This document shows, piece by piece, positions 16,734 through 22,944 of a stretch of DNA of 22,944 bases. The notes under the pieces are model-generated. The model saw only the letters and a list, made by a program, of their open reading frames with translations, did no database searches and had not been told where the DNA came from. How positions within the stretch are numbered: the first letter of the stretch is position 1; each line of letters starts with the position of its first letter. The DNA is taken from IMG/VR virus record IMGVR_UViG_3300025168_000716, positions 1-22,944 of that record; one strand, written 5' to 3'. Source of the stretch: a virus. A program made the position numbers and the translations under genes.

Positions 16734-19700
16734 ATGGCTCTACAGCACCTGCGTTCTGGCACAGCAAATAAGCGTCCTATCCCAACCGCAATGTCGGAGG
16801 GACAGCTTGCTGTCAACACTAATCTTGCTAGCCCTGGTCTGTTCTTCAAAGACAGCAATGGTGATCTAGTTAAAGCAGGTCCAGTTCATGTTGGAACGAC
16901 TGCGCCAAATGCTTCGCCAGCTAGTACGGCTGCAACGGCGTTAGTTGCTAATACTGTTTATCAGATCCTGACGACTGGAACGTCAGATTTCACGTCTGTT
17001 GGTGCGGGCTCAAATGCGGTTGGTGTTGTCTTCACGGCTAGTGGCACAACAACTGGCACAGGCACTGTTAGTGGTCAGCAAGGAGTTGAAAAGGGAGAGC
17101 AATGGCTAGATACGACAAATAGTCTTTATGTGATGAAGGTGTATGACGGGACGGGTTGGCGCGTAACTGATTCTATTTCGTTGGCAAATGGTACTGCTGC
17201 CGCACCAAGTTTGCACTTCAGTAGTGATACGAATACTGGACTGTTTAGAAGTGCAGCTGATTCATTAGCGATCACAACTGCTGGAACGCCGCGCGTAACT
17301 GTTAACAGCTTGGGACTAATAAATGTTACGGGTGGTATTCAAGTAACTGAAAATGTAACGCCTTCAGCTGGCAGTGGCATTGAAATATTTAAGCCATCCA
17401 GTACCTCTGGTCAAATACAAGCATTCAACAGAAGCGGAAATGCTTGGATGGATTTAATCCTTAAAGGTAATACACAGCAGTTCTATGCAAATGGAGCGCC
17501 GGCGATGCAAATCGCCAGCTCGGGCAATGTTGGGATTGGTACTTCAAATCCGAATGATGTAGGCAATTTTAGCAAAGCACTAGATGTTAGTGGAGCGTCT
17601 GGAGCTTCCGTTCTGGTAAGGAATAACAATAGTGCTACTAATTGCGGGATCTTTGGCTACTTTGGGACCTCTACATATGTAATGAACAGAGCCGCAGGTC
17701 CAGTGCTGTTTTACACAAGCAACACTGAGCGGATGCGAATCGCCAGCTCGGGCAAAGTTGGAATTGGAGTGCTGAACCCGCTTGTGAAGCTGGACGTTGT
17801 AGATAGTGCGGCAATGTCAGCAATTTTTAGGCAATCTTCTGGAAATCAAACCAGTGTTTACATAAAGCATGACGACAGCTCTGGCCGTATTGGTACTTCA
17901 TATGCCGCAGGTGGTGGCGCGTATAAAGCCTTAGCGTTTGAAACATCAAATACCCCGCGCCTAACAATCGACAGCTCGGGCAGGCTGTTAGTGGGGACGT
18001 CTAGCACGATTGGAGCAGGCAATGACTTAGTTATGCTCAAAGGTACCTCCGTAGCTGATGCCTCAATTTATTGCGGAAGAAACGCAAATGCTTCCAGTAT
18101 TTCTAACGGCAACAATCTTGGGTTTATTAAATTTGGTGGTGGGGATGGAGGCGTAGCGGCATCGGTTGGAGGAGTTGCAGACGGAACATGGTCATCTACA
18201 TCTGACTGCCCAGGCCGCCTAGCGTTCAGCACAACTGCCGATGGTGCGTCATCACCAACAGAGCGCCTACGAATCGACAGCTCGGGGAACGTAAATATCA
18301 TCGGCACTGGTACTGCTTCAGCGCCCAAAATTGCGCTGGCAGCGAGCGGCAGCGCCACATTTGTTGGTCCTGTAACTGTTGGTTCGGGAGTTGTTTATAC
18401 GAGAATCTATGGCGGCACGATGCTCGTCAGCAACGCTGGAAATGCTGGTCAAGGTTTTGGCGTTTATAACACCACTGCGGGTGCTTACACAATTGAATTA
18501 GATTTTGACGGATCAATAACTGCGGCTGGTGGTATTGATGTTAGTCGTGCTGGCGGAACTTCTCACGTATTTAGAGGTAAAACAGGATCTGGCTCACACA
18601 CCACAACAATCCTTGCGAATGGAACCGCTACTTTTGCTGGCCCTCTCACTGTCTATGATGCATTAGCCGGATCAGCGACTGACTCATCATTTACTATACG
18701 CAATCCTGGTAACACAGCGGATGTAGCGTCCATTGATGGTAATGGCAGCGCCTCATTTGCTGGTGCTTTAGATGTAGGTGATAATAATGGTTCATCCAGT
18801 GGTACTGGACTTTATATGCAAGCAAACGGTCAAGCATATTTATTTACAGCTTCAGCTATTGACGCACTAAATATCTATCAAGGTACAAACAGAAACGCTT
18901 TTATAAGCAGTTCAGGCAGCGCCACATTTGCAAGTTCAGTTCAAGTGACCTCCGGCTTGCGTATGTTCCGTACTGCCGGAGATAATTCTACGCGGATTAA
19001 TATTGGTGAAAGCGATACTCTCGCTGTTTGGCAAAACGCTGGGAACTTTTCTATTGGATATGACGGCAGCGCTTCATTTGCTGGTGGTGAGGTTACGATA
19101 AACGCTACTGGCAATGCAGCTGGTAAATTTAACATTGACTCCACTCCGGACGGTGGTAACTCCGCTTGGGGACTATCAGTTAAAAATAACGATGGTAGAG
19201 ACGGCAGACCTACGCTTAAACTTCAAAACGTAGGTGGTGGCAATGCTGTTGAGATTAAAAACTCAGATGCGAGCGCAAATACGACTGTAATCACAACGGC
19301 AGGAGCCGCCACGTTTGCTGGTGCTACAGTAAGTAACGGTGGTTTTGAATCTAGCCGTACTGGCGGAACTTCTCACGTATTTAGAGGTCGAACAGGATCT
19401 GGCTTATTCACCACAACAATTCTTGCGAACGGCAGCGCCTCATTTGCTAGCTCAATCACTGCGGCTGCAGACTCAACTATCAACACGCTAACAATTGGCC
19501 GTGGTGCAGGCAACGTCTCAACCAATACCGCAGCTGGAAAGAGTGCTTTAAACAGCAATACAAGCGGAGAAAAAAACACAGCTAGCGGGTATGAAGCCCT
19601 AAAAGCAAATACCACAGGAGATTACAATACAGCCAACGGATATTTGTCTCTTTTCACTAACACTACCGGCAATCGAAATACAGGCAACGGATATCTAACT

Positions 19701-20381
19701 TTACATTACAACTCTGGCGGTTTTAATACAGCCAGCGGGGAAGAAGCGATGTTTAACAACACCACCGGATCTTATAATACAGCCAACGGAAGCAAGGCTC
19801 TCAAGAAAAACACCACTGGAACTAAGAACGCAGCTGACGGGAGTGACGCTCTATTTAACAACACCACCGGATCTTATAACACAGCTGTTGGGTGCCAAGC
19901 TTTATTCAACAACACCACTGGCTCCGGCAACATTGCTATCGGTGGCGTTAACAGTTCTGGGTCTTACGTCCCAGTATTTAACCCAACAACAGAAAGCAAC
20001 CGTCTGGTCGCAGGACATACATCTATCACCGATGCCTACGTTAAAGTTTGCTGGACTTGTACATCAGACGAGCGCGATAAGATGAACTTTGCTCCGGTAC
20101 CTTATGGTCTGGACTTTGTTAATCAACTTAAGCCGACTGCATATCAATTCAAGGTAGATCGTGATACTGAAACACCAAATGGTGATGTACGTTATGGATT
20201 CAAAGCACAGGACATCCTTGCGTTAGAAGGAGACAATCCCGTCATTATTGACATTGAAGATCCAGATAACCTCAAGTACAAAGGTGAGCATCTCGTTCCT
20301 GTCCTTGTCAATGCGGTACAAGAACTGACCGCAATGGTTAAGGACTTGCAGAATGAAGTCGCAGCCCTTAGGGCTGGTTGA
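16734..20381 (+). CDS. Large tail fibre protein 2 with C-terminal Peptidase_S74 chaperone
   Basis: This 1215-residue protein has the N-terminus MALQHLRSGTANKRPIPTAM and then PGLFFKDSNGDLVK, a fibre start I know from cyanophages. Inside are 'R..IDSSG.V.IG' repeats (for example near 258, 336, 415, 517), a twice-used TGGTSHVFRG module, and eight YadA-like 17-residue repeats at 938-1071. The C-terminus (about 1105-1215) is an intramolecular chaperone of the endosialidase/Peptidase_S74 type: the dyad Ser1111 and Lys1116 (TSDERDK) is intact, so trimer folding followed by self-cleavage before Ser1111 is expected. A long C-terminal helix (NAVQELTAMVKDLQNEV) is typical. The mature part would be a receptor-binding fibre. 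TAAGG directly touches the ATG, too close for a normal ribosome binding site. Confidence 0.92.
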   Translation: MALQHLRSGTANKRPIPTAMSEGQLAVNTNLASPGLFFKDSNGDLVKAGPVHVGTTAPNASPASTAATALVANTVYQILTTGTSDFTSVGAGSNAVGVVFTASGTTTGTGTVSGQQGVEKGEQWLDTTNSLYVMKVYDGTGWRVTDSISLANGTAAAPSLHFSSDTNTGLFRSAADSLAITTAGTPRVTVNSLGLINVTGGIQVTENVTPSAGSGIEIFKPSSTSGQIQAFNRSGNAWMDLILKGNTQQFYANGAPAMQIASSGNVGIGTSNPNDVGNFSKALDVSGASGASVLVRNNNSATNCGIFGYFGTSTYVMNRAAGPVLFYTSNTERMRIASSGKVGIGVLNPLVKLDVVDSAAMSAIFRQSSGNQTSVYIKHDDSSGRIGTSYAAGGGAYKALAFETSNTPRLTIDSSGRLLVGTSSTIGAGNDLVMLKGTSVADASIYCGRNANASSISNGNNLGFIKFGGGDGGVAASVGGVADGTWSSTSDCPGRLAFSTTADGASSPTERLRIDSSGNVNIIGTGTASAPKIALAASGSATFVGPVTVGSGVVYTRIYGGTMLVSNAGNAGQGFGVYNTTAGAYTIELDFDGSITAAGGIDVSRAGGTSHVFRGKTGSGSHTTTILANGTATFAGPLTVYDALAGSATDSSFTIRNPGNTADVASIDGNGSASFAGALDVGDNNGSSSGTGLYMQANGQAYLFTASAIDALNIYQGTNRNAFISSSGSATFASSVQVTSGLRMFRTAGDNSTRINIGESDTLAVWQNAGNFSIGYDGSASFAGGEVTINATGNAAGKFNIDSTPDGGNSAWGLSVKNNDGRDGRPTLKLQNVGGGNAVEIKNSDASANTTVITTAGAATFAGATVSNGGFESSRTGGTSHVFRGRTGSGLFTTTILANGSASFASSITAAADSTINTLTIGRGAGNVSTNTAAGKSALNSNTSGEKNTASGYEALKANTTGDYNTANGYLSLFTNTTGNRNTGNGYLTLHYNSGGFNTASGEEAMFNNTTGSYNTANGSKALKKNTTGTKNAADGSDALFNNTTGSYNTAVGCQALFNNTTGSGNIAIGGVNSSGSYVPVFNPTTESNRLVAGHTSITDAYVKVCWTCTSDERDKMNFAPVPYGLDFVNQLKPTAYQFKVDRDTETPNGDVRYGFKAQDILALEGDNPVIIDIEDPDNLKYKGEHLVPVLVNAVQELTAMVKDLQNEVAALRAG
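18550..18578 (+). repeat. Direct repeat copy 1 in fibre 2
   Basis: A 29-base stretch identical to 19360-19388 (encoding GGTSHVFRG) lies here; similarity continues less perfectly for about 85 bases through TGSG..TTTILANG. Copies are exactly 810 bases (270 codons) apart, so recombination between them would delete an in-frame block. Confidence 0.9.
19360..19388 (+). repeat. Direct repeat copy 2 in fibre 2
   Basis: Second copy of the 29-base identical stretch at 18550-18578, followed by the same TTTILANGSASFA-type ending. The perfect identity suggests a recent copy event or gene conversion. Confidence 0.9.
19545..19946 (+). repeat. Eight 51-base repeats coding YadA-head-like units
   Basis: Eight units of 17 residues (two have 16), with consensus AL..NTTG.YNTA.G..., run from residue 938 to 1071 of fibre 2. 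This is the pattern of trimeric adhesin heads (left-handed beta-roll). A 26-base stretch starting TTTAACAACACCACC at 19752 recurs at 19854, 102 bases (two units) later, so unit number may change by slippage. Confidence 0.88.
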
Positions 20382-21032: not shown

Positions 21033-21389
21033 ATGATCAAAGCATTCGCAGTAGCTGTTTCTGGTGTTCTCGCTGGTTCAGCTGCCTTGGCAGGCCCTTA
21101 TGTCAACGTTGAGAACAACGCTGGCTATTCAGACGGCGACTATTTAGGCGCAACAACTGACATGCATGTTGGTTTTGAAGGCGGCGAAGGCGTTTACAGC
21201 TACTACGCCCAGGGCGGTCCAGCTTTTGTCAGCCCACAAGGCGAAGACGGAGAATTTCAGCTTTCAGGAAAGCTGGGTGGAAACGTGCAAGTAGCCGAAA
21301 AAGTTGGCATTTATGGAGAACTCAGCTTTTTGACTACAGAAGAAGATCCTTCTGTTGGAACTAAGTTTGGCGTCAAGTGGGCTTTCTGA
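21033..21389 (+). CDS. Secreted small beta-barrel-like outer membrane protein
   Basis: This 118-residue protein begins with a clear Sec signal peptide: MIKAFAVAVSGVLAGSAALA, with cleavage predicted after ALA at residue 20. The mature ~98 residues alternate in beta-strand style (GPYVNVENNAGYSDGDYLGA, DMHVGFEGGEGVYSYYAQGG, KVGIYGELSFLT) and end FGVKWAF; a terminal Phe is the usual recognition signal of outer membrane barrels. Related short proteins exist in picocyanobacteria and their phages, as I recall. It would be made in infected cells and placed in the host outer membrane, perhaps altering receptor access or permeability (inference). It is short for an eight-strand barrel. A terminator follows its stop. 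Confidence 0.78.
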   Translation: MIKAFAVAVSGVLAGSAALAGPYVNVENNAGYSDGDYLGATTDMHVGFEGGEGVYSYYAQGGPAFVSPQGEDGEFQLSGKLGGNVQVAEKVGIYGELSFLTTEEDPSVGTKFGVKWAF

Positions 21390-21463: not shown

Positions 21464-21703
21464 ATGCAAAAAGTTTTTAACGTTCTGTCCGTTGCATCAT
21501 TTGTCATGTCAGCAGGCATGGTTGTTGGATCGGTGATGCTTTACACCCGCATTCCATCAATCACAAAGCATTACATGGGTGAGCTGCAGACTGAGCTAAC
21601 CAAGATGGTGACTGACATGGTGCCTGGCCAGATTGATGACGTGATGCCTGAGCTGCCATCAGCTACAGGTCTACCAATTGAGCTGCCTACATCGCCGTTC
21701 TAG
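21464..21703 (+). CDS. Small single-span membrane protein, cyanophage type
   Basis: I start this at ATG 21464 (79 residues, MQKVFNVLSVASFVMSAGMV); the frame is open to TTG 21422, but that lies within the terminator. One membrane segment spans about residues 5-26. It is followed by a helical part (YMGELQTELTKMVTDMVPGQ) and a Pro-rich acidic end. The pattern 'FNVLS..SFV.SAGMV.G....Y' recurs in cyanophage genomes near structural genes; function unknown. The N-terminus is short and positively charged, so an N-in orientation with the tail in the periplasm or lumen is likely (inference). Its TAG stop shares the palindrome CTAG (21700-21703) with the stop of the opposite gene. Confidence 0.75.
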   Translation: MQKVFNVLSVASFVMSAGMVVGSVMLYTRIPSITKHYMGELQTELTKMVTDMVPGQIDDVMPELPSATGLPIELPTSPF

Positions 21704-21978
21704 TGAGCTTCAGGCCCAAAGCCTTCTTTTGCAATCAGAGCCATGTCTGCCCCTGAGGCAACAGGCTCTGTGCTGTCATCAAAGCTTGCCAGCCATTCAC
21801 GCACAGCGTCGCCTGTGGGAGTGCCTTTTGGCCAACGGATGAATTTCAAGACTTCTTTTTGATCGACAAAACCCATCGAGCTAAAGCCTTTCAGCACGGT
21901 GTAGCTAATAGGTGGCCCCTCGCGGTTCTTCTTGCGTTCGATCCATAGTTGACCTGCGACAAATCGCTCTGACTTCAT
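21700..21978 (-). CDS. Minus-strand conserved small protein
   Basis: This 92-residue protein begins at ATG 21978 (MKSERFVAGQLWIERKKNRE) and stops at TAG 21702-21700. The sequence ISYTVLKGFSSMGFVDQKEV and FIRWPKGTPTGDAVREWLAS reads as a real compact alpha/beta protein; 'GPP..Y...KGF..M..VDQKEVL....WP.GTPTGDA.R.WL' is a pattern I associate with cyanophage small proteins, function unknown. Frame extension upstream to 22137 would run antisense to the next gene, so ATG 21978 is preferred. It is one of two minus-strand genes in the window and fits between its neighbours with no spare base. Confidence 0.7.
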   Translation of the reverse strand: MKSERFVAGQLWIERKKNREGPPISYTVLKGFSSMGFVDQKEVLKFIRWPKGTPTGDAVREWLASFDDSTEPVASGADMALIAKEGFGPEAH

Positions 21979-22729
21979 GCCTGAAATACCTGAGATTGGG
22001 GTAGGACGTATTGGTGTTCCTGAGATACCTGCGTGGAGAATTATCCCGCCGCAAAGTCTTCCGCAGGAACTTCCTATTACGTTAATGCTTGGCTTTCCTG
22101 TTGCGGAGATACCGGGTTGTGTAGAAACACGAAGCACACAGCCTGGAAATGAAACTGCTTACGGCAACGATCCAAAAGGCAATTTCACGGTGTGTGATGG
22201 CACGATGCCGTCTTATGACCCAATAGATTTCACACCTGGAACGTTGACTTATGGGCCAGCAAAACCGCCAGCAATAGACCCCGAGAAAAAACCGGCTGAC
22301 AAGCAACCGGCTGCGTCCCCTTCGCCAAGCGGGTCTCAATCGCCTGACATTTCAAATGTAGAGGCAGAGCTGCCATGTCCGCCACCCGACGCAATACCTA
22401 TAGGCGCAAAAAATAAGCTTCAGACTGCTGTCATCACTGGTTACAAGCGGATCAATGGAGAATGCGAAACCCAGTTCAAGTCGCTGGACATACCAACGAT
22501 TCTCGGCAACCATTTACCTGGCTCGCCTGTTGTGGTCACGACTGCAACGATTGCGGTTGTCGCGACAACAGCGGCAGTCCTAGCCAAACCATTAGGCGAT
22601 ATCTTGCTGAAGACGATCAAGCCTCTTGTTAAAAAGACGATCAAGAAAATCAAGGAGAAACTGGGAAAGAAGACTGTTATTGAGTCAACTTGGCAGCGCC
22701 GGAGGTTTCAACGGTTTTTAAAGAAGTAG
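21977..22729 (+). CDS. Proline-rich membrane protein with cationic C-terminus
   Basis: This 250-residue protein begins MPEIPEIGVGRIGVPEIPAW. The first ~60 residues are Pro/Ile-rich with PPQSLPQELPITLMLGFPVA and then EIPGCVETRS. Next come NDPKGNFTVCDGTMPSYDPI, a Pro/Ser/Lys-rich linker (about 95-130), a hydrophobic span (VVVTTATIAVVATTAAVLAK, about residues 181-200) and a highly basic helix (LVKKTIKKIKEKLGKK) ending QRRRFQRFLKK. Proteins with this order are found in cyanophages, as I remember, with unknown role. The ATG overlaps the ATG of the minus-strand gene in the palindrome CATG. Four or more cysteines are present, in CVE, CDG, CPP and ECE contexts. The basic tail could bind membrane lipids or nucleic acid (inference). 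Confidence 0.72.
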   Translation: MPEIPEIGVGRIGVPEIPAWRIIPPQSLPQELPITLMLGFPVAEIPGCVETRSTQPGNETAYGNDPKGNFTVCDGTMPSYDPIDFTPGTLTYGPAKPPAIDPEKKPADKQPAASPSPSGSQSPDISNVEAELPCPPPDAIPIGAKNKLQTAVITGYKRINGECETQFKSLDIPTILGNHLPGSPVVVTTATIAVVATTAAVLAKPLGDILLKTIKPLVKKTIKKIKEKLGKKTVIESTWQRRRFQRFLKK

Positions 22730-22944
22730 GTATTGAATGGATGTGGGGCGGCAAGACGCTTGGCGGATTTGTTAAGACAACATCAGCACAGATTGACGAA
22801 TATGGACTGTTGGGGTGGAAAATTATTCCCTTTTGCATTAATTCAGCGCAATTTTTAAGTCTTGCAAGCTCGTAGTTAAGGCGTTTATCTGCCAATGCAG
22901 CGTCTAGCAATGCCACTTGTCTTTCAGCGGCTTTATGACAGCTT
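22677..22944 (-). CDS. Possible partial minus-strand gene at window edge
   Basis: The minus frame is open from the window end (first whole codon at 22943) to a stop at 22677. The first visible part (HKAAERQVALLDAALADKRL, then NYELARLKNCAELMQ) is a well-formed amphipathic, coiled-coil-like helix and reads as real protein. A GTG at 22916 is a possible start, but the frame continues upstream. The later part (FHPNSPYSSICADVVLTNPP) is less convincing, and the end overlaps the stop end of the plus-strand proline-rich gene by 53 bases. The competing plus frame 22690-22875 is a weaker candidate. Function unknown. Confidence 0.45.
   Translation of the reverse strand, partial: SCHKAAERQVALLDAALADKRLNYELARLKNCAELMQKGIIFHPNSPYSSICADVVLTNPPSVLPPHIHSIPTSLKTVETSGAAKLTQ

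Follow-up and report, generated by a model that had tools for sequence, protein, structure and literature searches.

An antisense gene that comes and goes between two co-directional genes of marine cyanophages

How does a small gene come to lie in antisense between two co-directional phage genes, sharing the letters of its stop codon with one neighbour and those of its start codon with the other, and what may this layout mean for their expression? The question is raised by a viral DNA of 22,944 nucleotides, here called the window, in which the genes P79, m92 and P250 follow each other on alternating strands. In this work, we have compared the locus with its relatives in phage records and in IMG/VR. 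The features of the window on which the argument turns are the following:

21033-21389, plus strand: outer-membrane-like gene (Phage_OMP), upstream of P79
21414..21443, plus strand: terminator-like hairpin between the Phage_OMP gene and P79
21464..21703, plus strand: P79, the upstream gene (79 aa, phrog_568), with its TAG within CTAG
21700..21703: CTAG, overlapping stop codons of P79 and m92, read directly; found in the sub-lineage of the window only
21700..21978, minus strand: m92, the antisense gene (92 aa, phrog_37139)
21976..21979: CATG, overlapping start codons of m92 and P250, read directly
21977..22729, plus strand: P250, the downstream gene (250 aa, phrog_570)
22040..22045, minus strand: candidate -10 box GATAAT for m92, inside P250 and 61 nt upstream of the m92 ATG; weak, with no -35
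22290..22312, minus strand: intrinsic-terminator-like hairpin and T tract inside P250, at about codon 105
22677..22943, minus strand: 3' part of a convergent phrog_848 gene, overlapping the P250 end by 53 nt

Three genes and their neighbourhood

The interlocking of the minus gene with both plus genes through CTAG and CATG, as the initial annotation had described it, can be read in the letters of the window, and the three genes are genuine, since each has a family match in PHROGs: P79 with phrog_568 (E 5.4e-18), P250 with phrog_570 (E 1e-60) and m92 with phrog_37139 (E 9.8e-16, residues 1-92 aligned to positions 1-94 of a profile of 108). The window contains 38 CATG sites, and the one at 21976 has by far the longest head-on pair of open reading frames (92 + 250 aa), the best shorter partner at any of the others being 46 aa. 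The P250 start at 21977 holds as well, because its homologs align from residue 1 and none begins at 22085; the later start was rejected on this ground. A megablast of the window DNA against the phage collection gave no match, and searches of m92 against Pfam, NCBIfam, PADLOC and PDB sequences gave none of weight.

Could m92 be a spurious open reading frame? Its small size, and nothing else, speaks for this. The phrog_37139 profile is matched by all 39 members of the m92 alignment, and the median dN/dS of 0.127 (2152 pairs from 109 complete genes) indicates purifying selection. The family match and the selection together refute the idea, to which we give practically no credence. The minus protein is thus conserved, being present at 47 IMG/VR loci and at 111 junctions of a larger set.

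The locus had been placed in a structural region, an inexact label: the families of P79 and P250 are cyanophage families without assigned function, with members also in T4-like cyanophages, close to regA and hsp20, and phrog_568 is annotated in cyanophages as 'plasmid stability'. Relatives of P250 occur in 397 phage records, almost all of which carry the name of Synechococcus or Prochlorococcus or are called cyanophages; those of P79 occur in 86, and those of m92 in just 8. In S-RIM2 (L147, Np191112_156-159) and Syn33 (L052), convergent minus genes follow P250 near regA and hsp20; judged from this gene order in T4-like phages, P250 and the convergent minus genes look like a module common to different phage morphotypes. 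The phrog_848 gene that meets the P250 end in the window is, in the relative G001, the last of a minus operon of four genes (phrog_721, 564, 650, 848).

Some observations concern other parts of these genomes. In L051 (AP013546.1), the P250 homology of gp164 starts about 60 nt before the annotated start, with no in-frame ATG or GTG there. The plus-strand protein at 16734-20381 of the window carries repeats of the NTASGYEALKANTTGDYNTANGY type in its last part, and its C-terminal end resembles what we take to be a fibre chaperone domain. A search for integrases in 16 related records, which are possibly fragments, found none above the Pfam cut-off and one below it, in G011.

The antisense gene as a gained-and-lost cassette

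Our scan of IMG/VR found 47 m92 loci, and in 43 of them P250 lies head-on at a CATG; the other four (L032, L033, L045, L046) have a different neighbourhood and GATATG in place of CATG. For a census we collected the junctions from the P250, P79 and m92 scans that had at least 130 nt upstream and were distinct by sequence (n = 203). Counted as distinct sequences and not as independent events, these comprise 111 junctions with m92, 80 that are empty, eight with a gene for a DUF3310 protein, three with another minus frame and one without a class; an earlier set of 159 junctions gave the same picture. Where the junction is empty, P79 and P250 lie next to each other, separated by no more than 13 nt and in most cases by 3-4 nt. 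Our results thus show that m92 is a cassette gained and lost between two genes that abut in relatives without it.

CATG stands at the P250 start in 111/111 junctions with m92, in 6 of the 80 empty ones and in none of the eight with DUF3310. Since the start is shared in CATG, the start codon of P250 is ATG in all 111 filled junctions, vs GTG in 59 of the 80 empty ones. The DUF3310 gene, identified by Pfam (E 2.2e-17), is co-directional, on the plus strand and inserted after P79; it occupies the junction by itself in L073, L115, L128, L129, L333, L347, L348 and L374, and lies between P79 and m92 in L017, L152, L188 and others. The third occupant, m46 (L096, L114, L127), is an unrelated minus frame of 46 aa which overlaps the P79 end by 29 nt and also has CATG at the P250 start in 3/3 cases. 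The differences among its three copies fall mostly on the third positions of minus-frame codons, as expected of coding sequence, and m46 has no relatives in the phage records.

The two palindromes differ in age and reach: CATG is old and invariant, and CTAG is recent and local, so that of the two shared tetranucleotides the first is general and the second is a feature of the window's sub-lineage. Among the 109 complete genes, 66 encode 104-105 residues ending in TKMVT or similar, and in most of them the stop reaches 17 nt into the P79 end, the arrangement of most relatives, others having spacers. The form of 92 residues (7/109) is without the C-terminal tail of the common form and uses the antisense of the P79 stop as its own, hence the 4-nt overlap; CTAG is thus probably the by-product of a deletion. 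The remaining m92 genes have 81-89 residues or end hundreds of bases away from P79.

How often has the gene moved? On a tree of P250 proteins (126 rows; outgroup S-RIM2, a P250 match, and Syn33_160, a P250 relative by position), m92 must have changed at least 17 times, and well-supported branches force at least 8 of these changes, vs a shuffled mean of 41; L198 is scored empty on this tree though its contig breaks off 43 nt upstream and resembles a filled site, and L079 and L080 are scored empty on 14-23 nt of upstream sequence. The P250 of the window is 93% identical to that of an empty-site relative, and on a DNA tree built from codon 56 onward for 115 window-like P250 genes, m92 requires 10 changes, 7 of them forced. 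On average 3.4-4.1 of 7 independent pairs are concordant with m92 gain or loss at the silent sites of P250 codons 4, 8, 16 and 29, vs 1.0 and 0.6 at the distant codons 161 and 205; codon 17 is concordant in just 1.0 of 7. This linkage of m92 gain and loss to the near silent sites, and hardly to the distant ones, suggests that the gene moves together with the 5' end of P250 as one block. Read in antisense, both ends of m92 are similar to the P79 tail and the spacer found in empty sites (AAGTCACC... at the left, ACCGTTCTGACT... at the right), a likeness that may point to insertion or excision by short homology. With a GC of 0.52, vs 0.48-0.52 in its neighbours, the gene is in composition not unlike its surroundings.

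An origin of m92 by overprinting on P79 or P250, which had been suggested for this locus, fits the fact that in the window m92 abuts both genes with no spare base. Its relatives tell otherwise: the whole gene is present or absent, the empty sites are without the DNA itself and not just without an open frame, P79 and P250 do not extend through m92, and the P250 frame is closed within 8-24 codons upstream. Homologs also occur in unrelated contexts, as in S-CBS3 (gp26) and in Autographiviridae-type phages. The empty sites and these contexts refute overprinting, which we regard as most improbable.

What could the product of m92 do? Outside the P250 junction its relatives adjoin a sigma factor and ssb (the Synechococcus phage S-CBS3), lie at the left end of the genome (S39-C11, S-TIP28), immediately ahead of an RNA polymerase region (S28-C3), next to MazG and ribonucleotide reductase (S-CBP2) or by an integrase (S38-C3), and at L032 and L045 the gene is near a terminase. 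The structure modelled from the 39-sequence alignment (pLDDT 75) is a beta-beta-beta-beta-alpha-alpha fold, with four strands, two helices and a disordered tail. Its best likeness in the PDB is to Pur-alpha (Z 5.8 over 64 residues, rmsd 3.3), which is not significant alone, and the best Foldseek hit has an E of 0.68; the likenesses to Pur-alpha and to AcrF2 are below the level of much meaning. Since the family is mostly found among early and replication genes elsewhere, and the model has a weak likeness to PUR repeats, we would guess, weakly, that m92 is a small early-acting protein, possibly one that binds nucleic acid.

Transcription signals and the reading of the locus

It had been expected that the promoters of the divergent pair lie inside each other's genes. 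For m92 this stands: the pair leaves no room between the starts, so that a promoter of its own must sit inside P250. For P250 it does not, because this gene follows P79 after 3-4 nt in most empty sites and needs no promoter of its own. As a terminator-like hairpin precedes P79, P79-P250 may be the weakly expressed tail of a late operon.

On the minus strand, the predicted terminator inside P250 stands between the four-gene operon, as seen in G001, and m92. Among window-like genes it is found in 13/16 filled, 40/40 empty, 4/4 DUF3310 and 3/3 m46 loci, vs 28/280 codon-shuffled controls under the same definition; its position is kept among relatives while the lengths of stem and loop vary, and the dG is about -11 to -17 in the window and in 12 of the 15 other window-like filled loci. 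Over all loci of the tree set it occurs in 30/58 filled ones, 43/52 empty and 1/5 of those with a 13-nt gap. Because this terminator would cut off the minus operon, m92 probably has its own promoter in the first 100 codons of P250.

A candidate for this promoter was seen in relatives as an extended -10 (TGRRATANT, minus strand, P250 codons 10-45), present in 11/16 filled vs 2/40 empty window-like genes, in 27/40 filled vs 1/6 empty newly fetched loci, and overall in 40/65 filled vs 3/51 empty, with 0 in three control regions. Divergent P250 types do not have it (0/40 with m92, and 0/24). Linkage alone may explain the association, since silent sites nearby track m92 just as closely; an earlier pair test of the extended -10 against m92 had too few pairs. 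The motif is absent from the window, where the candidate GATAAT is a different site and a scan for the sigma-70 consensus gave nothing above chance. A search for a promoter footprint, as silent-site conservation specific to filled loci, found none, codons 1-20 and 101-140 being conserved in filled and empty loci alike. At the putative Shine-Dalgarno of m92, likewise within P250, AGGA replaces AGGT at codon 4 in the majority of filled window-like loci, and the mean duplex energies are alike (-3.8 vs -4.0).

Downstream of m92, strong minus-strand terminators are found in 9/27 loci with a spacer vs 2/76 with an overlap, and in the window there is none after m92. Hairpins of the GAACCCC...GGGGTTTTCTTGTG kind, which look like terminators of the m92 transcript, lie between m92 and P79 in L021, L023, L133, L161, L204, L279, L290, L367 and L371.

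We propose, with a probability of roughly 0.6 for the whole picture, that m92 is a small accessory gene, an exchangeable cassette that marine cyanophages carry in antisense between the co-directional P79 and P250, and that it is expressed as its own minus-strand unit and interferes with P79-P250. The original insertion would have been guided by short matches between the m92 ends and the P79 tail, and later gains and losses, probably by homologous recombination, would move m92 in one block with about 30 codons from the beginning of P250, with the m92 start always fused head-on with that of P250. The minus operon would end at the predicted terminator, and m92 would most likely be transcribed from a putative promoter in the 5' part of P250. 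The P79-P250 mRNA would then cross m92 in antisense and the m92 mRNA would cover the start region of P250, and because the two overlap they should interfere, as in noncontiguous operons; antisense control of P79-P250 by m92 is plausible.

Two other explanations have to be weighed against this proposal. The layout could be mere compaction, with a cassette tolerated at the junction and with interlocked starts and antisense transcripts that have no regulatory role. The CTAG and the 17-nt end overlaps vary freely among relatives, a co-directional DUF3310 gene can occupy the same junction, and short overlaps are common in compact genomes, according to the accessible part of a survey of overlapping genes (PMC2174442), all of which speaks for compaction. 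It accounts less well for a CATG that is invariant although the P250 types share little else, and that the unrelated m46 uses too, and the same part of that survey describes divergent overlaps as strongly under-represented in prokaryotes because promoters and ribosome sites need room. We consider compaction a possible reading, though a doubtful one. Alternatively, m92 could be without a promoter of its own, as the last, separated gene of the minus operon, reached by read-through of the P250-internal terminator. That operon does point at m92, and many divergent m92 loci are without the terminator, but the hairpin intervenes in the window and in most of the window-like filled loci, and we think read-through unlikely.

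A bolder version of the proposed cassette takes the P250 start as a docking point, at which unrelated small antisense genes such as m92 and m46 are swapped in, both starts sharing the CATG. The cassette gene and P250 would be mutually exclusive through their overlapping initiation regions and transcripts and would form a portable switch between early and late expression. We offer this as speculation with a small chance of being right.

New in this locus are interchangeable antisense cassettes that are all fixed at a single overlap of start codons, along with the many empty sites that occur in nature. The starts have stayed overlapped head-on in P250 types that are very divergent, while by inference m92 was gained or lost at least 17 times, and the empty sites are matched natural controls that differ by one cassette, so that the effect of a nested antisense gene on an operon could be measured in such pairs once a host and its phage are in culture. 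The m92 junction is therefore a natural test case for control by antisense genes in phages.

Comparison with known systems

Long divergent overlaps have in the past turned out to be annotation errors, as far as the available part of one report goes (PMC2478687); the conservation of the m92/P250 overlap excludes this here. Within its own family, m92 shares the MK...F start with S-CBS3 gp26 and other phrog_37139 proteins, and those of S39-C11 and S28-C3 also share the TKMIT end. Elsewhere the genes of this family are mostly co-directional with their neighbours, unlike m92, which is nested in antisense at P250.

In lying between two genes that are direct neighbours in relatives, 80 of the 203 junctions being free of any insert, m92 is like a phage moron. 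It is unlike one in that its own promoter is a candidate only, that a terminator of its own is found in fewer than half of the relatives and is missing from the window, and that its base composition does not stand out from the surroundings.

A full-text literature search combining cyanophages with noncontiguous operons returned no paper, and none on cyanophage antisense cassettes was found among the search listings. The PADLOC models gave no match to m92, P79 or P250 up to an E of 1.

The closest likenesses come from staphylococci. In the noncontiguous operon menE-menC-MW1733-ytkD of S. aureus, a gene on the opposite strand is nested among the operon genes, so that the operon mRNA runs antisense to the full length of that gene, as the accessible portion of a review describes (PMC7154746). 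The opposite-strand m92 lies in the same way between P79 and P250, which are contiguous in empty sites, where the usual spacing of 3-4 nt hints at co-transcription. Unlike the nested gene of S. aureus, m92 is a phage cassette that comes and goes, with starts fused head-on, and the likeness is one of anatomy. In phage 80alpha, the tha-1/ith-1 pair forms a noncontiguous operon that switches between two expression states; what the consulted part of that report presents is, as with m92, a short phage gene that lies in antisense within an operon, with a conserved layout and divergent alleles (PMC11087260). The 80alpha system differs in that the phage is temperate and ith inhibits a defence protein, again following that part of the report (PMC11087260).
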